Position numbers and translations under genes: made by a program
Notes under the pieces: model-generated
Told to the model about the DNA's origin: nothing
Databases searched by the model: none
Seen by the model: only the letters and a program-made list of their open reading frames with translations
DNA from: Actinobacteria bacterium HGW-Actinobacteria-4
Lineage (GTDB): Bacteria > Actinomycetota > Actinomycetes > Actinomycetales > Demequinaceae
DNA length: 64,000 nt
NCBI GenBank assembly: GCA_002841315.1
Contig: PHEW01000001.1
Coordinates: 186,001 to 250,000, forward strand
Reading direction: 5' to 3'
In this document: piece after piece, positions 13,296 to 29,796 of the stretch
How the letters are laid out: each line of letters opens with the position of its first letter
Numbering within the stretch: position 1 is the stretch's first letter

Positions 13296-14534
13296 CTAGG
13301 ACCGACTAGCAGCCACCAACGCGGCGTACCACTGGCTGGACGGCTTTGGCGTGCGCTCAAAGGTCTCGAGGTCCACAGCGGTGAGGCCAAATACCGGACG
13401 GTAGCCTTCGGCCCACTCGAAGTTGTCGAGCAAGCTCCAAGCGTAGAATCCGCGCACGTCAACGCCGTCGTCCATGGCGGCCCGCAAAGCAGTGAGCGAA
13501 CGCGAGTAGTACTCGATGCGCTCGTCGTCGTTCTCCGTCGCGATGCCGTTCTCGGTGACGATCACCGGCACGCCGGCCACCTCATAGGCGAGCCTCACCG
13601 TCACTCCAAGCGCTTCGGGCGTAAACGTCCATCCCATCTGCGTGGTGCGCCACTCCTCCGGTACCGGGAGCGGCTGTCCGTTCGCGTCTAGGTGCATCGT
13701 GAAATAGGTCTGGACTCCGATGTAGTCATCGTCGCGCGCTGCCTCGAGGTATGCCCCGGACATCAGCCGCATGGCCTCCGAGTCGCGGTCATCACCGGGA
13801 AGATCGGCAGCGCGTACGCCCTCACCGTTGATGTCGCCGTCGAGGTGAAAGACAATGTCGGCGAGGCCCAACGTGAGGCCCACAGGGAAGCTGCCCGGGC
13901 CCGCCTTCAGGACTACGCGCGCCAACTTGTGGGCGGCGATGAAGTGATGAGTCACGCGCGCATGGGCGTCATTGTCGCCCTGGATGCCTGGCGGGAACTG
14001 CCCGATGAGCCAGCCCATCATCGCAACCACGTTGGGCTCGTTGAACGTCGCGCAGATGTCGATGTGCTCACCCAGGTACTCCACGACCTTGCCTGCGTAG
14101 CGTTCAAAGTAGTCCACCACCTCGGGGGTGTCCCAGCCGCCCTTGTCAGCCATCCACAGTGGGGTGGTGAAGTGGTGCAGCGTGACGTTGGTCTTGAGGC
14201 CCATCGCCTGAGCGGCGGCGAGCTGACGGCGGTACTGACCCAACGCCGCGAGCGAGAACTCGCCCTCGGCTGGCTCGATGCGGCTCCACTCGATCGACAT
14301 GCGGTAGGAGTCGAGGCCCATCCGCTTGACCAGTTCGAGGTCCTCTTCCCACCGGTGCCACGAGTCGCAAGCGTCGCCACTGGACTCGGTGGTGCCGGAG
14401 CCCTCGGTGTGCTCAAAGCGCCACCAGTCGTTGTTGACGTTGCCGCCCTCGATCTGGTGCGCCGCTGTGGCGGTGCCCCACACCCAGCCGTTGGGGACCT
14501 TGCCAAAGTCAGTCAAAGGTTCAAAGGCTGTCAT
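13296..14534 (-). CDS. GH1 beta-glucosidase (paralogue A)
   Basis: Family 1 retaining beta-glycosidase, 412 residues, cytoplasmic (no signal peptide). The N-terminal GH1 signature is seen in FGKVPNGWVWGTATAAHQIEGG. The acid/base glutamate is in TFNEPNVV (E166) and the nucleophile in VIVTENGIA (E328). It is 41 bp downstream of a closely similar GH1 gene in the same direction, so the pair is a duplicated two-gene operon. Its start has only a modest ribosome site (GGAGCACACC). Likely role: hydrolysis of imported beta-linked disaccharides or oligosaccharides such as cellobiose or de-xylosylated xyloglucan fragments. Confidence 0.94.
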   Translation of the reverse strand: MTAFEPLTDFGKVPNGWVWGTATAAHQIEGGNVNNDWWRFEHTEGSGTTESSGDACDSWHRWEEDLELVKRMGLDSYRMSIEWSRIEPAEGEFSLAALGQYRRQLAAAQAMGLKTNVTLHHFTTPLWMADKGGWDTPEVVDYFERYAGKVVEYLGEHIDICATFNEPNVVAMMGWLIGQFPPGIQGDNDAHARVTHHFIAAHKLARVVLKAGPGSFPVGLTLGLADIVFHLDGDINGEGVRAADLPGDDRDSEAMRLMSGAYLEAARDDDYIGVQTYFTMHLDANGQPLPVPEEWRTTQMGWTFTPEALGVTVRLAYEVAGVPVIVTENGIATENDDERIEYYSRSLTALRAAMDDGVDVRGFYAWSLLDNFEWAEGYRPVFGLTAVDLETFERTPKPSSQWYAALVAASRS

Positions 14535-14575
14535 GGTGTGCTCCTAGCAACTGGGTGATGCGGGAAGGGGTGATG

Positions 14576-15811
14576 CTATCGCGATGAAGCAACGAGGGAC
14601 GCGTAGTACGCGCTCGAGGGCTTAGGGCTCCGGGCAAAGGTCTTGAGGTCCACCTTCGTGAGGCCAAAGAACGGCGCAAAGCCGGATGCCCATTCGAAGT
14701 TGTCGAGCAGCGACCAGTAGAAGTAGCCGCGCACATCGACACCGTCATTCATCGCCTCGCGCAGCGCGGTCAAGGCCACCGAGATGTACTCGACGCGGTC
14801 GGCGTCATCGGTGGCAGCCACGCCGTTCTCCGTCACGATGACCGGTAGCCCGGACTTCGCGGCCGCGTAGCGCACCGTGTTGCCAATGGCGGCGGGCGAG
14901 AACGGCCACCCCATCTGGGTGACGCGCTGGCCCTCAGGGTGAGGGAGCTGCTGGCCGTCGGGTCCCACGTGGTGGGTCGAGTAGGTCTGCACGCCCACAA
15001 AGTCATCGCCTTCGGCAGCTTCGAGGTAGGCGTCCACCATGAGCCACTTGTGCTCGGCGCCTGGGAAGTCTTCGGGGAGGTCAAAGGGGGACGTCTCTGG
15101 ACCGTTGCGGTCACCGTCCAAGTGGAAGCGGGTGTCCGAGATCGCCACGGTGATGCCCACCGGGAAGTCGCCAGGACCGGCCTTGAGGACCGGGCGGGCG
15201 GCGCGGTGCGCGGCGGCGAAGTTCTTGGTCGCGGTCCGGAAGCTATCCATGTCGCCCTTGTGCCCAGGGGGGAATGCGCCGAGGTCATAGCCAATCCAAG
15301 CGACCATGTTGGGCTCGTTAATGGTGCATGCCACGTCGATGAACTCACCGAAGTGCTTGACTGCGACGTCGCAGTAGCGCGCGAACTTCTCGACGATCAC
15401 GGGGTTGGTCCAGCCGCCCATGTCAGCGAGCCACAGTGGCGTGGTGAAGTGATGGAAGGTGACGACGTTCTTGAGGCCCATACCGCGCGCCGTCTCCATG
15501 ATCTCCTTGTAATGATCGAGAGCCACGGTGGAGAACTCACCGTCCGCAGGCTCGATGCGCGCCCACTCAATGCTGAAGCGGTATGCGTCCAGCCCCATGT
15601 CCTTGACCAGCTGCAGGTCCTCGCGCCAGCGATTGAAGCTGTCGCAGGCGTCACCACTGGACTCCTTGGTCCCGGTGCCCTCGGTGTGCTCGAAGCGCCA
15701 CCAGTCAGTGTTGGTGTTGCCACCCTCGATCTGGTGCGCGGCGGTGGCGGTGCCCCAGATGAAGCCCTCAGGAACAGGGCCGAACGAGGTCAGTTTGGTG
15801 TAGTCGGACAC
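14576..15811 (-). CDS. GH1 beta-glucosidase (paralogue B)
   Basis: Second family 1 glycosidase, 411 residues from the GTG at 15811, which has AAGGAG 6 bp upstream; the in-frame ATG at 15871 would place the start inside an operator. It shares long blocks with paralogue A (GTATAAHQIEGGN, WWRFEHTEG, SSGDACDS). The acid/base is in CTINEPNMVAW and the nucleophile in VIVTENGVA. Inserts and loop residues differ (for example GSGTTESS against GTGTKESS), so substrate range may differ. It is the first gene of the pair. The palindrome TCGAAACGTTTCGA lies about 60 bp upstream and resembles sites of the alpha-xylosidase cluster at 44586 and 45720. Confidence 0.94.
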   Translation of the reverse strand: MSDYTKLTSFGPVPEGFIWGTATAAHQIEGGNTNTDWWRFEHTEGTGTKESSGDACDSFNRWREDLQLVKDMGLDAYRFSIEWARIEPADGEFSTVALDHYKEIMETARGMGLKNVVTFHHFTTPLWLADMGGWTNPVIVEKFARYCDVAVKHFGEFIDVACTINEPNMVAWIGYDLGAFPPGHKGDMDSFRTATKNFAAAHRAARPVLKAGPGDFPVGITVAISDTRFHLDGDRNGPETSPFDLPEDFPGAEHKWLMVDAYLEAAEGDDFVGVQTYSTHHVGPDGQQLPHPEGQRVTQMGWPFSPAAIGNTVRYAAAKSGLPVIVTENGVAATDDADRVEYISVALTALREAMNDGVDVRGYFYWSLLDNFEWASGFAPFFGLTKVDLKTFARSPKPSSAYYASLVASSR

Positions 15812-15872
15812 AGAGGACTCCTTGAGCGGGACGGGGACAATGACTACCATCGTAGCGCCATTGGAGGCCATA

Positions 15873-20684: not shown

Positions 20685-21791
20685 TCAGGACCGGTAGGAG
20701 CCCGTCAGGTAGACGGCGCCGCCATCCACGCCCTTCGCACCACGAATCACGTCCGGCGACTGTTGGCGCGCGTCGTCGACGCCTATCTCACCGAGGACCC
20801 ACGAGGGTACTCCCGTTGCGGCCGATGCTGCGATTAGGGCGTCTGCATCGCCGGGGGCGACCACAGCCACCATTCCTACGCCAAGGTTCAGCGTGGCCTC
20901 GATGTCGTGCCACGGCACATTGCCAGCGCCTTGGATGAGCGAGAAGATTGCTGGCACCTGCCACGAGTCTCGCGCCACGGTAGCGGCCAGCCCCACGGGA
21001 ATCACGCGCGCGAGGTTTGCTGCGAGGCCGCCGCCGGTGACGTGGCTGAAGGCATGAAGCCCGGGTGTCGTTGCCGCAAGGTCCACGCAGAGCTTGGCAT
21101 AGATGCGCGTGGGCTCGAGCAGCTCGTTGCCCAATGTCCGGCCCAGGTCCGGCATCTCTTGGTCCAGCGACCATCCCGCATGCTTCACTACCGAGCGCAC
21201 CAGCGAGTAACCGTTCGAGTGCAGCCCAGAGCTGGCCATAGCGACCACGACGTCGCCGGAACGGACCTTGTCTGGGCCAAGCACGGCATCGGCCTCAACC
21301 ACGCCCATCGCGGCGCCAGCGACGTCGTAGTCGTCCGGAGCCATCACACCGGGGTGTTCGGCCGTCTCGCCCCCTACGAGGGCCGTACCGGCCATCTGGC
21401 AGCCTTCTGCGATGCCGCGCACAATGTCAGCGATCCGTTCGGGGATCACCTTGCCGCAAGCGATGTAGTCAGTCATCACGAGCGGCTTGGCACCGCACAC
21501 CACGATGTCGTCAACCACCATCGCGACCAGGTCCTGGCCAATGGTGTCGTGGATGCCCATGGCCTGGGCGATCACGATCTTGGTGCCTACGCCGTCGGTG
21601 CTGCTCGCGAGCAGCGGGCGCCGATAGTCCTTCAGGGCGGAGGCATCGAAGAGTCCAGCGAAAGCTCCCACGCCGCCTAGTACCTCAGGGCCATGAGTCT
21701 TGGCGACGGCTGCCTTCATGAGTTCCACTGCCTTGTCGCCTGCGGCGGTGTCGACACCCGAGTCTGCGTAGGTCATGCCGTCGCGGGTCAT
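20685..21791 (-). CDS. purM: Phosphoribosylformylglycinamidine cyclo-ligase (AIR synthetase)
   Basis: Catalyses ATP-dependent ring closure of FGAM to AIR in purine synthesis. Start chosen at 21791, overlapping the purF stop (ATGA); a longer frame up to 22040 is antisense-like. The 368-residue protein has MTYADSGVDTAAGDKAVELMK, the ATP-binding loop SSTDGVGTKIVIAQ, and GGETAEHPGVM, then SGLHSNGYSLVR, all standard for PurM. It is the second gene of purF-purM. Confidence 0.96.
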   Translation of the reverse strand: MTRDGMTYADSGVDTAAGDKAVELMKAAVAKTHGPEVLGGVGAFAGLFDASALKDYRRPLLASSTDGVGTKIVIAQAMGIHDTIGQDLVAMVVDDIVVCGAKPLVMTDYIACGKVIPERIADIVRGIAEGCQMAGTALVGGETAEHPGVMAPDDYDVAGAAMGVVEADAVLGPDKVRSGDVVVAMASSGLHSNGYSLVRSVVKHAGWSLDQEMPDLGRTLGNELLEPTRIYAKLCVDLAATTPGLHAFSHVTGGGLAANLARVIPVGLAATVARDSWQVPAIFSLIQGAGNVPWHDIEATLNLGVGMVAVVAPGDADALIAASAATGVPSWVLGEIGVDDARQQSPDVIRGAKGVDGGAVYLTGSYRS

Positions 21792-23260
21792 GGCGCCACC
21801 TCGACCGGCTGGGTTGCCAACAGGTGGCGCGCGTTGATCGGTGGCGTGATCGGGTACTCGCCGGTGAAGCAGGCCGTGCACAGGCGGTTCGCAGCCTGGT
21901 TGGTCGCTGCGATCATGCCGTCGAGCGAGATGTGGCCCAACGAGTCCGCGTCGATCTGGATGCGGAGTTCCTCCAGCGTGTGGCCCACCGCGGCGAGCTC
22001 GCCGCGAGTCGGGAAGTCGATACCGTAGAAGCACGGCCACTCGACAGGCGGCGCCGAGATACGAACGTGGACCTCTGCGGCGCCTGCTTCGCGGAGCAAC
22101 GCGATGATGGCGCGCTGGGTGTTGCCTCGAACGATGGTGTCGTCGACCACAATCAAGCGCTGCCCCTCGATGACCTCACGTAGCGGGTTGAGTTTGAGCC
22201 TGATGCCCAACTGACGCAGGGTTTGGGACGGCTGAATGAAGGTGCGCCCCACGTACGCGTTCTTGGTGAGGCCGATGGCGAACGGGATTCCCGATTCTTG
22301 CGCGTAGCCCACGGCTGCGGGCGTTCCCGATTCAGGGACGGGGATCACGAGGTCCGCCTCGACCGGGTGCTCCCGGGCCAAGGTGCGGCCCATCTCGAGT
22401 CGCGCGGCCTGGACGGAGCGCCCAGCGATCGCGGTGTCGGGCCTGGCCAAGTAGACGTACTCGAAGATGCACCCCTTAGGATCCGACTTCGCGAAGCGCT
22501 GCGAGTGAACACCGTTGGCATCGATCATCACGAACTCGCCGGGCTCGATTTCTCGCTCCCACGTGGCGCCCACAATGTCCAAGGCGGCGGTCTCAGACGC
22601 CACCACCCAGCCGTTCTCGAGCTTGCCCAGCATGAGGGGGCGCACGCCCTGAGGGTCGCGGGCGGCATAGATCTTGTGCTCGTCCATGAACACCAGGGAG
22701 AAGGCACCGCGCACCCGTGGGAGCAGCTCGATGGCGGTCTCCTCGAGCGTGGGAAACAAGTCAGTGCCCAGGAGTGCGGTGAGGACCGTCGTGTCCGTGG
22801 CAAGGCCCGCGTCAAAGCGGGCGCGAGCGCCTTCGCCTGCACGCTCCTCAAGCAGGTCCAGCAGCTCCTCGATGTTGGTGAGATTGCCGTTGTGCCCCAG
22901 GGCGACCGTACCCGTGGCCGTGGGGCCCAGCGTGGGCTGCGCGTTCTCCCACACTGAAGCACCCGTGGTCGAGTAGCGTGTATGGCCGATGGCGAGGTCG
23001 CCGGTGAGCGCCTCAAGCGCCCCCTCATCAAAGACCTGCGAGACCAGACCCATGTCCTTGAACACCAGGATCTTCTTGCCATTGGAGGTCGCGATGCCGG
23101 CGGACTCCTGGCCGCGGTGCTGGAGTGCGTACAGACCAAAGTAGGTCAGCTTGGCGACCTCTTCGGTGGGCGCGTAGACACCAAACACACCGCACGCGTC
23201 TTTGGGGCCCTTCTCGCCGGGAAGGAGGTCATGGCTGAGAAGCCCGTCACCGCGGCGCAT
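21788..23260 (-). CDS. purF: Amidophosphoribosyltransferase
   Basis: First committed enzyme of purine synthesis: makes phosphoribosylamine from PRPP and glutamine. The 490-residue protein carries a 22-residue propeptide ahead of the catalytic Cys23 (KDACGVFGVY), as in Bacillus-type PurF, and the N-terminal glutaminase motif YALQHRGQESAGIA. The PRPP loop is RLIVVDDTIVRGNTQ. A cysteine set for an iron-sulfur cluster (IFEYVYLARPD region and C-terminal RLCTACFTGEYP) is partly visible. Its start overlaps the stop of the upstream small membrane-protein gene by 1 bp. Confidence 0.96.
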   Translation of the reverse strand: MRRGDGLLSHDLLPGEKGPKDACGVFGVYAPTEEVAKLTYFGLYALQHRGQESAGIATSNGKKILVFKDMGLVSQVFDEGALEALTGDLAIGHTRYSTTGASVWENAQPTLGPTATGTVALGHNGNLTNIEELLDLLEERAGEGARARFDAGLATDTTVLTALLGTDLFPTLEETAIELLPRVRGAFSLVFMDEHKIYAARDPQGVRPLMLGKLENGWVVASETAALDIVGATWEREIEPGEFVMIDANGVHSQRFAKSDPKGCIFEYVYLARPDTAIAGRSVQAARLEMGRTLAREHPVEADLVIPVPESGTPAAVGYAQESGIPFAIGLTKNAYVGRTFIQPSQTLRQLGIRLKLNPLREVIEGQRLIVVDDTIVRGNTQRAIIALLREAGAAEVHVRISAPPVEWPCFYGIDFPTRGELAAVGHTLEELRIQIDADSLGHISLDGMIAATNQAANRLCTACFTGEYPITPPINARHLLATQPVEVAP

Positions 23261-23715: not shown

Positions 23716-24639
23716 TTAACCCTTGATCGAACCGGCAAGCAGTCCACGCACAAAGTAGCGCTGCAACAGGAAGAACACGATCAGTGGCACGATGATCGAC
23801 ACGAACGCCGCCGCCGTCATGACTTCCCAGTCACTGCCACGTGAGCCAGCTAGCTCCCCTAGGCGTTGGGTCAGCGGCGCAACGTCCTTGCCGCCACCGG
23901 AGAACACCAGCGCCACCAGCAGGTCGTTCCAGACCCACAGGAACTGGAAGATCGCGAGCGATGCCACGGCGGGCAACGACAACGGGAAGATCACCTTGAG
24001 GAACATCTGGGTGTGGTTGGCGCCGTCAACGCGCGCAGCCTCGACCACTTCATGCGGGATCTCCGAGATGAAGTTGTGGAGCAAGAAGATGCCCAGTGGT
24101 AGCGCAAAGATCGTGTGCGCCACCCACACCGCCGCGAAGCTGCTTGAGATGTCAAGCCACGGCTGGTTGAAGATGCGCAGCAGCGGAATCAAGGCCATCT
24201 GGAGTGGCACAATCTGCAATGCGAACACCAGCACGAACAGCCACGACGATCCCTTGAAGGGGATCCACGAGAACGCGTAGGCCGCCATCAGTGCGAGGGT
24301 CAACGGGAAGATCGTGCCGGGGATGGAGATCACCAACGAGTTGATGAAATAGGAGCCCAAGCTCGCTGAGGACGCCCCAGAATCGAACAACACGGCCTCG
24401 TAGTTGCGGAACGTGAAGCCCCAATTGGTCAGGATGGTCCACCAACCGGAATTAGACAGGTCAGCTGCGGGCCGGAAGGACGAGATGAACAGACCGAACG
24501 TGGGCAACGTCCACAGCATTGCGATGATGATCGCGCCGGTGGTCGCCCAGCGAGACGTGAGGCGCTTCTTAACGCGACCCGCCTTCGAGGAGCCGTTGAT
24601 CTCGCCTCGGATGGGCTTGGGGGCGATTGCGGCGCTCAT
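23716..24639 (-). CDS. Sugar ABC transporter permease, MalG/AglG type
   Basis: Second inner-membrane subunit of a CUT1 sugar importer, 307 residues from the ATG at 24639, which has GGAGG 8 bp upstream; the extended frame to 24921 overlaps the other permease gene and is not real. Six helices, with the EAA loop HEVVEAARVDGANHTQMFLKVIFPLSLP. It overlaps the preceding permease stop by 1 bp (TAATG). No ATPase gene is present in the operon, so it probably relies on a shared MsiK-type ATPase encoded elsewhere. Confidence 0.92.
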   Translation of the reverse strand: MSAAIAPKPIRGEINGSSKAGRVKKRLTSRWATTGAIIIAMLWTLPTFGLFISSFRPAADLSNSGWWTILTNWGFTFRNYEAVLFDSGASSASLGSYFINSLVISIPGTIFPLTLALMAAYAFSWIPFKGSSWLFVLVFALQIVPLQMALIPLLRIFNQPWLDISSSFAAVWVAHTIFALPLGIFLLHNFISEIPHEVVEAARVDGANHTQMFLKVIFPLSLPAVASLAIFQFLWVWNDLLVALVFSGGGKDVAPLTQRLGELAGSRGSDWEVMTAAAFVSIIVPLIVFFLLQRYFVRGLLAGSIKG

Positions 24640-25664
24640 TAGTGAGCCTCCTTGTGCTGGCGCAGAACTCGAACGTTGTAGATCACAATGGGCAACACCA
24701 TCAGGAACAACAGCACTGCGAGTGCAGCACCAATAGATGGCTGCCCAAGGGCAAATGCCCGGTTGTACATCTCGTTGGCGATGACTGATGTCTTGAACTG
24801 GCCACCAGTCATGGTGCGGACGATGTCGAAGACCTTGAGTGTCGCAATGGTGATAGTAGTGACGACCACCACCAGCGAGCCGCGGATCCACGGAACGGTG
24901 ACGCTCCAGAACCGTTGCCACGCGTTCGCGCCGTCAAGGGACGCGGCTTCAATGATCTCGTCAGGCACGCCCTTAATGGCGGCCGAGAGGATCACCATGG
25001 CGAATCCGGTCTGGATCCACACCATCACGAAGATCAAGAACAGCGTGTTGAATGGCGCACTCGCGATGAACTGATGCGGTTCAAGCCCCAACCAGATCAA
25101 CACCTGGTTGAGGAAACCGATCTGCGGGAACGCTTCCGCGCGGTACGTGTACATGAAGCGCCAGATGATTGAGGCTCCCACAAAGGAGATAGCCATGGGC
25201 ATGAACACCAGGGCCTTGTAGACCTTCTCACCGCGGGACTTGTCGATGAACACCGCGTAGGCGAGTCCCACCGACGTCGACAGTAGCGGCACAAGCACCA
25301 CCCAGATGAGGGTGTTTCGCACCACTGATTGTTGCGTGGGGTCCGTGAAGATCGTCACGAAGTTGGCGAGGCCCACAAACTCACCACCGTCGTTGGTGAG
25401 CGACGTGCCGATGGTCTGAATGGCGGGCCAGATGAGACCAGCTCCGAGCAGGAGCAGCGCTGGCGCCACGAAGAAAAGGAGCTGCAGAACGTCGCGCCCC
25501 TTCTTAGGGGCGTTGTCTGCCAAGAACATCAAGAGCCCGACGACGGCGACAAAGATCGCGATGGCGATGAGTCCCGTTCCGAGTTTGCTTCCTGACTCGG
25601 ACCAGAACTTGTCCGCTCGGACTATCTGTTGGCCTGCCAGGGCTAATGCATGCGCCGACTGCAT
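24639..25664 (-). CDS. Sugar ABC transporter permease, MalF/AglF type
   Basis: First membrane subunit of the CUT1 importer, 341 residues with about eight helices, two of them N-terminal extras as in AglF/MalF. The cytoplasmic EAA loop is PDEIIEAASLDGANAWQRFWSVTVPWI. It follows the binding-protein gene by 86 bp, with a hairpin in between, and is coupled to the second permease. The overall make-up resembles alpha-glucoside AglEFG systems; substrate not proven. Confidence 0.92.
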   Translation of the reverse strand: MQSAHALALAGQQIVRADKFWSESGSKLGTGLIAIAIFVAVVGLLMFLADNAPKKGRDVLQLLFFVAPALLLLGAGLIWPAIQTIGTSLTNDGGEFVGLANFVTIFTDPTQQSVVRNTLIWVVLVPLLSTSVGLAYAVFIDKSRGEKVYKALVFMPMAISFVGASIIWRFMYTYRAEAFPQIGFLNQVLIWLGLEPHQFIASAPFNTLFLIFVMVWIQTGFAMVILSAAIKGVPDEIIEAASLDGANAWQRFWSVTVPWIRGSLVVVVTTITIATLKVFDIVRTMTGGQFKTSVIANEMYNRAFALGQPSIGAALAVLLFLMVLPIVIYNVRVLRQHKEAH

Positions 25665-25750: not shown

Positions 25751-27112
25751 CTACGGCCACGTGCTGTCGATAAATGCGACAGTTTCATCAGTTGTGCGAG
25801 TACCGGCTACCCAGTCGGTGATACCGGTCCAGAAGGACGCGGCGCCAACAGCAGCAGGCATCAGGTCAGAAGCATCGAACCGGAACACGGTGTTCTCACC
25901 CTGCAGGATCTCAATCGACGCCTGGCCGATGGGAGAACTTGCGTTCGTGGGGTCGAGGCCCTTGTTTGCGGAGATTACTCCACCGAGGCTAACACGAGCG
26001 TTGGCCCATTCGGCAGATGCCATGTACGCCTGCACTGCAGCAGTAGCAGCGTTGTCGTTGAACGCGGCCACGAACTCGCCACCACCGGTGACGGCGTCGG
26101 GGTCGCTAGCGTTCATCTTCGGGGTGATGAAGGCCCACACGTCGCCGTTCTCAGAAACGTCGGTTCCTTCAGGCCACTGAGCTTCGTAGAACGAAGCCTG
26201 GTGGTGCATGGAGCAGTCACCCGTGAGGATCGGCAAACCACCGTTGTTGAACGACGTCGAGACGATCGACTCGGGTCCACCGAAGCCACCGTTGACGTAG
26301 TCAGGGTTGAGCGCGATGTCGCCGAAGGTGTCGAACGCGGCCACGATCTGCGGGTCAGAGAACTTCACGTCTCCAGCAACCCACTGGTCGTAGACGTCCG
26401 CGCCAGCCTGACGCAGGACGATGTCCTCGAGCCAGTCGGTGCCTGGCCAGCCGGTGGCAACACCGGACTCGAAGCCGATGCACCACGGTGCGTAGGTGGC
26501 GGAGGTGTTTGCCGCAGCCATCGTCGCAGTGAGGTCCATCATTTCGTCCCAGGTGCCGGGAACTTCGTAGCCGTTCTCAGCGAATTCGGACGGTGAGTAC
26601 CAGATCCAGCCCTTGACGCTTGCCATGAGAGGCGCTGCGTAGAAGGTGCCGTCAATGGTGCCGTACTGCTTCCAGCTCTCGGACCAGTACTCGTCAACGT
26701 TGGCCTCTACTGCGGCGGGTGCCGCGACCACGTTGCCGGTAGCGACGATGCGCTCCAAGAGTCCCGGCTGAGGGAAGATGGCCAGGTCGGGCGGCGAACC
26801 GCCCTCAACGCGAACGTTGATCTGGGTCTCGAACTCCTGAGTACCGACGTAGTTCACGGTGATGCCAGTGCACTCCGTGAAGTCGTCGAACGTGGCTACG
26901 AGCTGGTCTGCCTCGACGCCCTGGATGGTTGCGTAGACCTCGACCGAGGCACCGTCGTGCGTGCCGTACGCCGCGTAGTCTTCACAACCCGCTGCGACAG
27001 TTCCGCCACCGGGGGTGGTGCCGGTCGGTTCTGGATCGCTGGTCGAACAACCAGCGAGAATGAGCCCCGACGCCGCGATGGCGGCGATAGGGGAAATGAT
27101 GCGTCGTTTCAT
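25751..27112 (-). CDS. Sugar ABC transporter substrate-binding lipoprotein, AglE-like
   Basis: Surface lipoprotein of 453 residues that binds the sugar for the CUT1 importer. The signal MKRRIISPIAAIAASGLILAGC gives lipobox LAGC at Cys22. The mature protein is of the SBP_bac_1 group (GGSPPDLAIFPQPGLLERI, KQYGTIDGTFYAAPL, GDCSMHHQASF). The general form resembles alpha-glucoside-binding AglE, which suggests a di- or trisaccharide, but the neighbouring GH6 genes would also fit a beta-glucan product. GGGAGG lies about 10 bp before the ATG. A palindrome GCAAGCGCTTGC lies 117 bp upstream. Confidence 0.92.
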   Translation of the reverse strand: MKRRIISPIAAIAASGLILAGCSTSDPEPTGTTPGGGTVAAGCEDYAAYGTHDGASVEVYATIQGVEADQLVATFDDFTECTGITVNYVGTQEFETQINVRVEGGSPPDLAIFPQPGLLERIVATGNVVAAPAAVEANVDEYWSESWKQYGTIDGTFYAAPLMASVKGWIWYSPSEFAENGYEVPGTWDEMMDLTATMAAANTSATYAPWCIGFESGVATGWPGTDWLEDIVLRQAGADVYDQWVAGDVKFSDPQIVAAFDTFGDIALNPDYVNGGFGGPESIVSTSFNNGGLPILTGDCSMHHQASFYEAQWPEGTDVSENGDVWAFITPKMNASDPDAVTGGGEFVAAFNDNAATAAVQAYMASAEWANARVSLGGVISANKGLDPTNASSPIGQASIEILQGENTVFRFDASDLMPAAVGAASFWTGITDWVAGTRTTDETVAFIDSTWP

Positions 27113-27404
27113 GGGAAACCTGCCTCCCTCTTTCTCTTCTTTGAGTAGTGCTCGTCGAGTTCGCAGGTCACGAACCCCTCGAGCGTTTCACACCCACGGC
27201 CGGAGATTCAGTTCGCACCACCGGCTACGCAAGCGCTTGCTTTTTACCCTAGGCGACCCGGGACGTAGGTGCGACCCCCGTAACTGAATCGTTACTCAAA
27301 GGAGGTGTATTCGTGCTCAAACTGGGCAAACCGCCTCATGCATGCGCTTGCGCAAGGTCGATGCAACTGGGTGTCAGAGCCGGGGTTGAGGCGGACCGCA
27401 AGCG
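27113..27404. other. Regulatory region upstream of the CUT1 binding protein
   Basis: No gene is visible in this 292-bp gap between the GH6 stop and the binding-protein start. It holds a perfect palindrome at 27229-27240, a second related half (GCGCTTGCGCAAG) at 27344-27356, and a third CAAGCGCT that runs into the GH6 stop codon at 27398-27407. No hairpin terminator for the GH6 operon was found, so read-through into the transporter operon is possible. Confidence 0.6.
27229..27240. promoter_or_regulatory. LacI-type operator GCAAGCGCTTGC
   Basis: Perfect 12-bp palindrome with the central CG step typical of LacI-family sites, upstream of the CUT1 binding-protein gene. It differs from the other two operator classes in the window, and no regulator gene lies beside it, so its repressor is presumably encoded elsewhere. 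Confidence 0.65.
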
Positions 27405-28418
27405 CTACGGCTGGGCGTTGCGGGCCATCTCGAGGGCGATCTCTTGCCACCATTGGCCGGCGGCAGGTCCACCGTTGCATGTGCCATCGGACTCGCCCGG
27501 TGCCTTGACCCACACAGTCGCGACCATGGGGCCTTCGGCAATCAAGCGCGGTGCCTCGCCTAGAGCGCGGCCGCGAGGGTTGCACCACTGGCCGTCAGAA
27601 CCGTTGCCATTGCGCGAGGTGTCCACCACGAAGGACAGCCCCGTCTGTGCAGCGATCTGCTCGCCCCACGCCTGCTCGTTTGCCGTCGTGTTGTAGTTCG
27701 AGGTGTTGGTCGCGAAGCCCGTCAGGTGGGCGGTGCCCACCTGGTTGAGTCTGCGCACCGTCTCATCCACGCCAATCCAGTTTGAGTTGCCTGCATCAAG
27801 GAACACGCTCGCACCCGCTTGGTCGAGGATGCGAGCAGCGGCCCCGAGCAAACCCGCCCGGTCACCCTGGCCCTCGCACTCGCCTAACTGCGCAAGCGCG
27901 TCCGGTTCCAGCACGATCCACACGTCAGAACTAGCGTCACTCACCGCAGTGGCAACCGCGTCTATGAAACCCAAGTACTGATCCTCAGGCAGGCCACCCG
28001 CGCTGTAGAGCCCGCAGTCACGGCCGGGGATCGCGTAGATCACGAACACCGGGATGCGGTTCGCGGCCGCCGCCCCACGGGAGACCAACTGGACCGTGTC
28101 GTGAGCCGACTGCGCAGACTGCCAGTCGCCTATCCAGACTGCAGACGGCTGATCAGCAATGAGCTTGATGAGGGCGGCGTCGGCCTCCCTGCCTTCGAGC
28201 AGCAGCCGCGCGTAGGCGGTGTCGGCGCTGCTTCCAGCATCGTAGAAGCCTTCGGGCGGGCCCTGCGCGGGCGGTGCATCAGGCGTGGCCGTCGACGTTG
28301 CGGGTATCGCGGGCGTGGGGATGCCGGTGAGACTGGGGTCCGGTCCCGAAGGCCCGCCGGTCGAACACGCCGCGAGCGTCGCCGCCAGCGCGACCATGGC
28401 CACTGCCCGCGCGTTCAC
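27405..28418 (-). CDS. GH6 family lipoprotein (endoglucanase/cellobiohydrolase-like), catalytic residues intact
   Basis: Predicted surface-anchored beta-1,4-glucanase of 337 residues. The GTG start at 28418 overlaps the preceding stop (GTGA); an upstream ATG at 28532 lies inside the neighbour. The signal peptide has lipobox LAAC (Cys18), followed by a Pro/Thr-rich linker (residues 20-55). The GH6 motifs are complete: YAIPGRDCGLYSAGG with the Asp at 134 in RDC, VWIVLEPDALAQL with the proposed catalytic acid Asp173, and VVDTSRNGNG with Asp266, followed by WCNPRGRALG. It lies in one operon with purL, a sterol-carrier gene and a degenerate GH6 paralogue of identical length. Enzyme activity is inferred from motifs. 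Confidence 0.88.
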   Translation of the reverse strand: MNARAVAMVALAATLAACSTGGPSGPDPSLTGIPTPAIPATSTATPDAPPAQGPPEGFYDAGSSADTAYARLLLEGREADAALIKLIADQPSAVWIGDWQSAQSAHDTVQLVSRGAAAANRIPVFVIYAIPGRDCGLYSAGGLPEDQYLGFIDAVATAVSDASSDVWIVLEPDALAQLGECEGQGDRAGLLGAAARILDQAGASVFLDAGNSNWIGVDETVRRLNQVGTAHLTGFATNTSNYNTTANEQAWGEQIAAQTGLSFVVDTSRNGNGSDGQWCNPRGRALGEAPRLIAEGPMVATVWVKAPGESDGTCNGGPAAGQWWQEIALEMARNAQP

Positions 28419-29428
28419 GCGTTGTCCGGGTTCGCGTTGCGGGCCAGTTCCATCGCGAGGTCGGGCGCGAACTCGCCCTCTCCTACCGTTGTGTTGCATG
28501 GGCCGTCGGATTCCCCTGGGCGCTTGACCCACACGTACGCCTCGAGGCGGCCATCACCCACGAGCCGGGGTGCCTTGCCGATGGCCTGACCTCGAGCGTT
28601 GCAAGTCTCGTCACCAGCGGTGCCGTTGCCGGTGCGCGCGGTGTCGATGATGTAGCTGAGGTGTGTGTGGCGTTGATCGGCAAGGATGTCGAGGATCGCG
28701 TCCCCGCGCTCACGCTCGACCTCCACGAGGTCGTAACCACCCACACCGAGGAGCAGTCCATCCACGCGGCTCAGGTCGAGCTGCGCGAGGCGCGCCGCTG
28801 CTTCCTCCGCTGGCCAACCGCGCGCACCGGTGGCGTCCACGTAAACCCCAACCCCGGCATCGTCCAATGCCTTGATGGCGGCGTTCATCACCTCGACGTG
28901 GTCCGCCCTTCCGTCGCACACCTCGAGATCGTTAATGGCGCCCGGCTCCAGGATGACCCACGCCTCGATGCTGAACTCCGCGAAGTGGCGCACCGACGCC
29001 GCCACCTTGGACACATAGGCGTCGCGTACGGCGTCCAGGTTGTCGATCTCGCAGGCAAGCGGCGGTTGTCCGGCAAAGGCGATGAGCGCGATGCGGTCCT
29101 GATCGCGAGCAGCGCGAAACACGCCCAGCGTGGTGTTGGCGACACGGTCGTCGTCCATCCACGCGCCCACCCAGCGGGCTTGCGCGGTGCCAGCGATGCG
29201 CATGAGGGTGTCGGCGCGCTCGTGGTCGCCGTCAATCCTGTACGCGGTGACCGATGCGATCGCCTTGTTGCCGTCCACCAAGAAGTCGCCGTAGTCGGGC
29301 CACATGATCACGCCGGACTCACCCACCGGAGGCTCGACGTAGCGCTCCGACGTGACGCACGCCGCGAGCGCTAGGGCGGTGAGAGTGACGAGGGCGCTGG
29401 CACGCACCCGTGTGCTGGGGGTGTTCAC
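28415..29428 (-). CDS. Degenerate GH6-like lipoprotein lacking catalytic residues
   Basis: Paralogue of the downstream GH6 lipoprotein, also 337 residues. Start is the GTG at 29428, overlapping the stop of the sterol-carrier gene (GTGA). Lipobox LAAC gives Cys24. The fold-defining C-terminal half is well kept (YIIDTARTGNGT with Asp262, ETCNARGQAIGKAP, AYVWVKRPGESDG). But the motif that should read YxxPxRDCG is FAGQPPLACE (residues 118-127), and EPD, carrying the catalytic acid, is EPG (Gly163). Both key aspartates are therefore absent. The frame is open and full length, so it is not a decaying pseudogene. Likely a carbohydrate-binding or regulatory derivative; role unknown. Confidence 0.85.
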   Translation of the reverse strand: MNTPSTRVRASALVTLTALALAACVTSERYVEPPVGESGVIMWPDYGDFLVDGNKAIASVTAYRIDGDHERADTLMRIAGTAQARWVGAWMDDDRVANTTLGVFRAARDQDRIALIAFAGQPPLACEIDNLDAVRDAYVSKVAASVRHFAEFSIEAWVILEPGAINDLEVCDGRADHVEVMNAAIKALDDAGVGVYVDATGARGWPAEEAAARLAQLDLSRVDGLLLGVGGYDLVEVERERGDAILDILADQRHTHLSYIIDTARTGNGTAGDETCNARGQAIGKAPRLVGDGRLEAYVWVKRPGESDGPCNTTVGEGEFAPDLAMELARNANPDNA

Positions 29429-29796
29429 GAGGGTTCCTCTGGGATCAAGGGCAGGAGTCCAGCCAGCGTAGCGCGCTCGCCCGATGCCCTGACCAGTCCC
29501 GCCTTCATCGCGTCTTCCCAGGTGGTCACGCCAGTAGCAAGCCTGAGCCAGGTGGTGGGTTCCGTTTCGACCACGCCGGGCGGGGTGCCGCGGGTGTGGC
29601 GCGGGCCGTCGATGCATTGGGTGGCACCGTACGGAGGGACCCGGACTTCTAGGCTGTGGCCGGGTGCGCACGCCGCGAGCTCTTCCAGAGTGAAGCGGAC
29701 GGCCGTGGCGGTGGTGGGACCGTCAGCGGCCGATGCTGCCCACGCCTTGAGCGCGGCCATGCCAGCTTCGCGATCTATTCGGCGGCGGGGAGGCAT
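29425..29796 (-). CDS. Sterol-carrier-family protein
   Basis: A 123-residue protein of the bacterial SCP-orthologue group (SCP_3 type) that actinobacteria often carry beside purine genes. Visible conserved stretches are TAVRFTLEELAACAPGHSLEVRVPP, IDGPRHTRGTPP and TWLRLATGVTTWEDAMKAGLV, shown in part. Function unproven. It follows purL by 20 bp and overlaps the GH6-like gene by 4 bp, linking the two parts of this operon. Confidence 0.82.
   Translation of the reverse strand: MPPRRRIDREAGMAALKAWAASAADGPTTATAVRFTLEELAACAPGHSLEVRVPPYGATQCIDGPRHTRGTPPGVVETEPTTWLRLATGVTTWEDAMKAGLVRASGERATLAGLLPLIPEEPS

Follow-up and report, generated by a model that had tools for sequence, protein, structure and literature searches.

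A GH6 lipoprotein without catalytic aspartates, encoded beside an intact paralogue in Demequina, as a candidate glucan-holding pseudo-cellulase

Introduction

Surface glycan-binding lipoproteins of the SusD, SusE and SusF type capture glycans for uptake. Pseudoglycosidases are also known, and the literature on them gives both outcomes, binder and non-binder. The GH18 chitinase-like protein YKL-39 is portrayed, in excerpts of one article, as a glycosidase turned glycan binder (PMC7828330). The GH28 pseudoenzymes of beetles are described in an excerpted report as not binding pectin, yet having an effect on digestion (PMC8213348), a precedent that weighs against the sugar-holding role proposed below. 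In the GH6 endoglucanase Thermobifida fusca Cel6A, the role of catalytic acid falls to Asp117, and Asp79 is put forward as the base, as given in portions of two papers (PMC5968413, PMC6091422). A natural inactive member of GH6 was not found in a limited literature search conducted without most subscription journals; 'GH6' and 'pseudoenzyme' are both mentioned in passing in two articles (PMC12508864, PMC6925290).

Here, we describe a GH6 homologue, P1, whose cutting residues have been lost but which evolves like a working gene, and which is therefore probably a helper that holds sugars instead of cutting them. An annotation by family name would label this protein a cellulase despite its missing catalytic acid.

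The P1 locus and its conservation

All coordinates refer to the window, the 64,000-nt stretch of contig PHEW01000001.1 that was analysed (Actinobacteria bacterium HGW-Actinobacteria-4, Demequinaceae). The relevant features are as follows.

13296-15871: two GH1 beta-glucosidase-like genes in tandem, separated from the transporter genes by about 8 kb
21788..23260, minus strand: purF, one border of the conserved interval
23716..24600, minus strand: ABC transporter permease 2 (BPD_transp_1), with its start chosen by us inside a longer open reading frame
24639..25664, minus strand: ABC transporter permease 1 (BPD_transp_1)
25751..27112, minus strand: likely sugar ABC transporter substrate-binding lipoprotein, matching NCBIfam sugar-binding models below their cut-offs and without a Pfam match
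27229..27240, no strand assigned: perfect palindrome of 12 bp, GCAAGCGCTTGC, in the gap from P2 to the binding-protein gene, a possible operator on weak evidence
27405..28418, minus strand: P2, intact GH6 lipoprotein of 337 aa, with D134 and D173 as its two catalytic Asp
28415..29428, minus strand: P1, pseudo-GH6 lipoprotein of 337 aa, with A125 and G163 at both catalytic Asp positions
29425..29796, minus strand: SCP_3 (PF17844) gene, sharing 4 bp with the start of P1
29817..32132, minus strand: purL, the other border of the conserved interval

P1 and P2 are presumably both lipoproteins, a lipobox being read from the Cys-bearing N-terminus of each. As a sequence-only reading of this DNA had stated, both open reading frames encode 337 residues, and the P1 frame is intact and overlaps both of its neighbours; each overlap measures 4 bp, GTGA twice, at the SCP_3 end and P1 start and at the P1 end and P2 start. 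Because GH6 and GH1 genes are present, the substrate of the transporter is probably beta-glucan fragments. P1 and P2 of the window are coupled to the SCP_3 gene and are not located behind the transporter genes, which counts against a glucan-holding role.

The palindrome GCAAGCGCTTGC, which we take to resemble a LacI-type operator, has a one-mismatch copy at 27340-27351 and an exact copy upstream of the binding-protein gene of another genome (G040; L176 6909-6920). At least two occurrences arose in 6 of 100 window shuffles, and the window's own genome contains the motif in 2 places versus 4 for a backward control, so that the signal is weak; the motif was not found in the genomes G016 or G029. 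A promoter scan returned no promoter-like sites (1.1 expected) and seven terminator-like sites (4.3 expected), and was read as nothing.

The interval between purL-SCP_3 and purF contains a GH6 gene in 17 of 17 loci (the window and 16 further ones), although contig ends restrict the view of two of them (G007 and G029) to a single side. The binding-protein gene and two permease genes accompany the GH6 gene in 14 of these; the transporter genes were not found at the G038 and G044 loci, and the G029 contig ends before them. The GH6 gene precedes the transporter genes in 11 loci (the window and ten others) and follows them in three (G016, G031 and G033). At the latter loci (L181, L168 and L167, respectively), the position of the GH6 gene or pair after the permeases represents a rearrangement inside the conserved interval.

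Of 44 Demequina genomes, 3 yielded a P1 orthologue, namely the window's own (G000), G016 and G029; in 14 of the 17 genomes compared at this locus, no P1 was found. Each holder also carries an intact GH6 copy beside P1 (3/3). The sequence-only reading had proposed a fixed pair with an active copy; pairing with an active-looking copy stood in all three holders, but most relatives carry intact copies without P1, which means that the pair is not a fixed one. As 41 of the 44 genomes gave no P1, the locus is used without it, a point against the glucan-holding reading. The relatives without P1 offer ready comparison strains.

This distribution bears on a rival explanation, in which P1 acts not on sugar but on the intact enzyme P2, as its heterodimer partner, stabiliser or antagonist. 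P1 lies directly before P2 in both locus arrangements and in all three holders, with the two genes overlapping by 4 bp in the window and by 1 bp in the two relatives, and a precedent for antagonism comes from inactive heparanase 2, which appears to counteract heparanase 1 according to excerpts of one report (PMC12406646). However, most P2 orthologues occur in genomes where no P1 was found, and an action on P2 is considered unlikely.

Loss of the catalytic residues

P1 is a homologue of GH6 enzymes over nearly the whole domain. Both proteins match PF01341 above the Pfam cut-off of 27 bits (P1, 86.7 bits; P2, 184.7 bits), the P1 match covers positions 13-300 of the 305 in the profile, and, counting from P1 residue 49 onward, P1 and P2 are 32% identical (92 of 287 aligned positions). 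In a HMMER alignment with T. fusca Cel6A (2boe chain), in which the Cel6A residue numbers were counted by us from the printed alignment, D79 corresponds to P1 A125 and D117 to P1 G163. P1 therefore belongs to GH6 by profile while having neither the Asp of the catalytic acid nor that of the proposed base. The possibility that misalignment hides another Asp was rejected, as HMMER alignments to solved GH6 structures, MAFFT and profile alignment agree on both positions. The central claim of the sequence-only reading, that both catalytic Asp residues are lost from a full-length protein, was thus borne out.

P1 is without catalytic residues and, judged from its sequence, would be without hydrolytic activity. 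A reading in which P1 is still catalytic, slowly or on another substrate, would need E127 to take over as a remote base, with water or some other group supplying the acid. E127, which lies two residues beyond the lost base, is found in all three P1 proteins and in 0% of 129 intact copies, so that an altered base in P1 is conceivable, and T. reesei Cel6A without its proposed base Asp retains 2-3% activity, as stated in a portion of the report (PMC6091422). The acid position is another matter, being occupied by Gly in two of the three proteins and by Ala in the other, with no new acidic residue common to them nearby. The sequence-only reading had named other conserved Asp residues at the catalytic positions as grounds for refutation; on checking, a conserved acidic substitute is absent at the acid, but a new Glu is present near the base. 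Residual catalysis is considered improbable.

An AlphaFold2 model of P1, built from a six-row alignment, reached moderate confidence (mean pLDDT 67.0, pTM 0.69, with pLDDT below 50 at residues 267-285 and 309-316); a P2 model made as a control gave pLDDT 74.3 and pTM 0.74. All 45 Foldseek matches of the P1 model at E <=0.001 were GH6 proteins or scaffolds derived from one, and VIA-align placed the model on 6fao with Z 28.9 over 272 residues and on 2bod with Z 28.4. The fold of P1 is accordingly predicted to be a GH6 barrel. The model was also considered for the fold of an ABC substrate-binding protein; its best matches are all GH6, while the locus carries a separate binding-protein gene.

P1 relatives and the residue census

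The two relatives of P1 are 40% and 37% identical to it and have open frames of 380 codons, with starts chosen by us. Both have Thr at the base position, and in place of the acid G016 has Ala and G029 has Gly. When one genome per species was scanned with two peptide patterns, which reach close relatives only, the only matches were D. activiva NBRC 110675 (G016) and a Demequina MAG (G029). When a P1 alignment was searched against 396 genomes of the order, the GH6 protein of G044 (E = 1.2e-50), which has both Asp, ranked next behind the G016 and window P1 proteins; the P1 of G029 was absent among the matches of this search.

A census was taken of the GH6 frames in 166 loci, all of one order, from which 134 aligned stretches not contained in another were obtained. 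Both Asp are present in 129 of these and neither in three, the P1 set, and the remaining two are halves of one gapped frame. The census excludes short C-terminal matches, unlisted matches and nearly all of a search of 394 genomes of the class, 13 of which were looked at after being picked partly for weak scores; it therefore speaks for the stretches sampled, and both Asp may also have been lost elsewhere.

Among the 129 intact copies, 34 columns are at least 95% constant. The P1 proteins keep 21, 22 and 23 of them, versus at least 30 (median 34) in intact copies. In P2 numbering, all three P1 proteins have another residue or none at R133, D134, G142, D173, G228, F235, N238, N241, N270 and W278, and those kept in all three include W95, C135, E171, D208, D266, R269, C279, W303, K305 and D311. 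In P1 numbering, W86, K302 and D308, together with C126 and C276, are kept in all three P1 proteins, and E306, C171 and C311 are identical across the three P1 and three P2 proteins aligned. As counted from the printed HMMER alignment, Cel6A W41, K259, E263 and D265 correspond to P2 W95, K305, E309 and D311, and Cel6A W231 to P2 W278; the equivalents of these five residues presumably line the glucan cleft. Because such residues are partly kept and partly lost, P1 appears to retain one part of the cleft while losing another together with the catalytic groups. Loss of the Trp (P2 W278) and of two Asn (P2 N238 and N241) could make binding weaker, which argues against a glucan-holding role. Conversely, E127, L217, D218, G228 and G231 (P1 numbering) are common to the P1 proteins and occur in 0-1% of intact copies.

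Two further groups of GH6-like proteins were observed. A divergent group from the same class (L188-L195 and L200-L206; family f45, or f32 for L195 and L203) scores 50-93 bits on PF01341, is without RDC and GESDG motifs, and has Asp at the acid column, often as QPDGPF, in 15 of 15 loci, two of which overlap; L189 of this group has Asp also at the base column. Some Demequina carry additional GH6 copies (L043, L044, L053 and L054) with a long N-terminal extension that by our reading resembles CBM2 and is missing from P1 and P2.

Descent and selection

P1 has a single origin with high support, the three proteins forming one clade (SH-aLRT 99). This clade groups with the Demequina locus enzymes and the G044 enzyme (SH-aLRT 84), its exact place being unsure in a tree obtained by quick search with long P1 branches. 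Independent Asp losses in three genomes were considered unlikely, because residues common to all three (E127, D218, G228 and G231) are rare or absent in intact copies and the proteins form a single clade. When the purL-purF tree is rooted on G044, the other 15 Demequina group together to the exclusion of G000 (100/100). Among them, G016 and G029, the latter placed by purF alone, fall with G031 and G033, two genomes that gave no P1. P1 thus either predates the split between G000 and the other Demequina, with several subsequent losses, or has moved between lineages.

P1 is under purifying selection, and it evolves faster than P2. Rates were estimated by the NG86 method, since maximum-likelihood dS was unreliable (over 5). 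Between G016 and G029, P1 has a dN/dS of 0.29 over its full length and of 0.22 when the first 60 aligned codons are left out, versus 0.22 and 0.18 for P2. Between G000 and G016, with dS above 1, dN/dS is 0.49-0.50 for P1 versus 0.32-0.34 for P2, a difference that counts against the glucan-holding reading. The three P1 frames are still open at NG86 dS of 0.68-0.77 (G016-G029) and above 1.2 (G000-G016), and an N-terminal LALAAC is conserved among the proteins.

These results also bear on whether P1 is a functionless, decaying duplicate whose frame is open by chance or through translational coupling to P2. Its occurrence in only 3 of 44 genomes and its faster evolution than P2 between G000 and G016 would fit such a view. 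However, three frames remain open despite high dS, dN/dS is below 1, and LALAAC and the shared derived residues are conserved; furthermore, two relatives also are without both Asp, so that chance decay of one gene does not account for the loss. Random decay was rejected as the main reading and is given little credence. The earlier proposal that the frame is maintained agrees with the orthologues, which are open in three of three genomes and have dN/dS of 0.22-0.29 (G016-G029). P1 combines two features of a pseudoglycosidase: glycosidase homology with the catalytic residues lost, and an intact gene maintained by selection.

The idea that P2 evolved faster after loss of P1 was considered and set aside. 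Between P1 holders and sister genomes in which P1 is missing, P2 identity is low (G029-G033, 63.6%, with purF at 92.6%), but a pair without P1 (G001-G027) gives 69.4% and 94.4%; because the P2 divergence is much the same, nothing was concluded on the P2 rate. In a comparison of the P2 tree with the species tree, a grouping of G029, G031 and G033, named after the trees had been seen, was weakly rejected (p-AU 0.034).

Proposed role of P1 and comparison with known systems

The explanation that we favour, with a probability of roughly 0.55, is that P1 is a pseudo-cellulase specific to this lineage and serves, next to P2 and the transporter, to hold cello-oligosaccharides or glucan ends at the cell surface. 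In this model, duplication of the GH6 endoglucanase of the locus early in Demequina would have given rise to P1, hydrolysis would have been lost as the acid, the proposed base and several more residues of the cleft were replaced, and the protein would then have been kept by selection as a lipid-anchored surface protein. The retained part of the cleft (W86, K302, E306 and D308) most likely holds cello-oligosaccharides or glucan ends, such that P2 would make cello-oligosaccharides, P1 would hold them and the ABC transporter would take them up. A more specific designation, as a GH6-derived surface glucan receptor of Demequina, that is, the capture lipoprotein of cello-oligosaccharide uptake paired with an active sister, is tentative and falls somewhat short of even odds. 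For the signalling role that had also been suggested for P1, nothing was found in its favour. If binding is confirmed, the locus would provide a natural pair of active and inactive GH6 proteins, showing what the cleft needs for holding versus cutting glucan.

The proposed role of P1 is like that of the SusD, SusE and SusF lipoproteins as generally understood, whereas its fold is unrelated to theirs and the transport system is different. Like the GH28 polygalacturonase pseudoenzymes of beetles, P1 would be an inactive paralogue beside active ones in a polysaccharide pathway, but those are insect digestive proteins of another family and without substrate binding. With the GH6 endoglucanases T. 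fusca Cel6A and Mycobacterium tuberculosis Cel6/CelA1, P1 has in common the family, the predicted barrel, Cys positions and part of the cleft; it differs from them in being without the catalytic acid, the proposed base and further constant residues, and in having an N-terminal lipid anchor, as read from its sequence. A further parallel is YKL-39, in that P1 likewise appears to be an enzyme fold with its catalytic residues lost and is a probable binder. Unlike YKL-39, P1 belongs to GH6 and is a bacterial lipoprotein encoded beside an intact paralogue and a transporter, and its glucan binding is putative.
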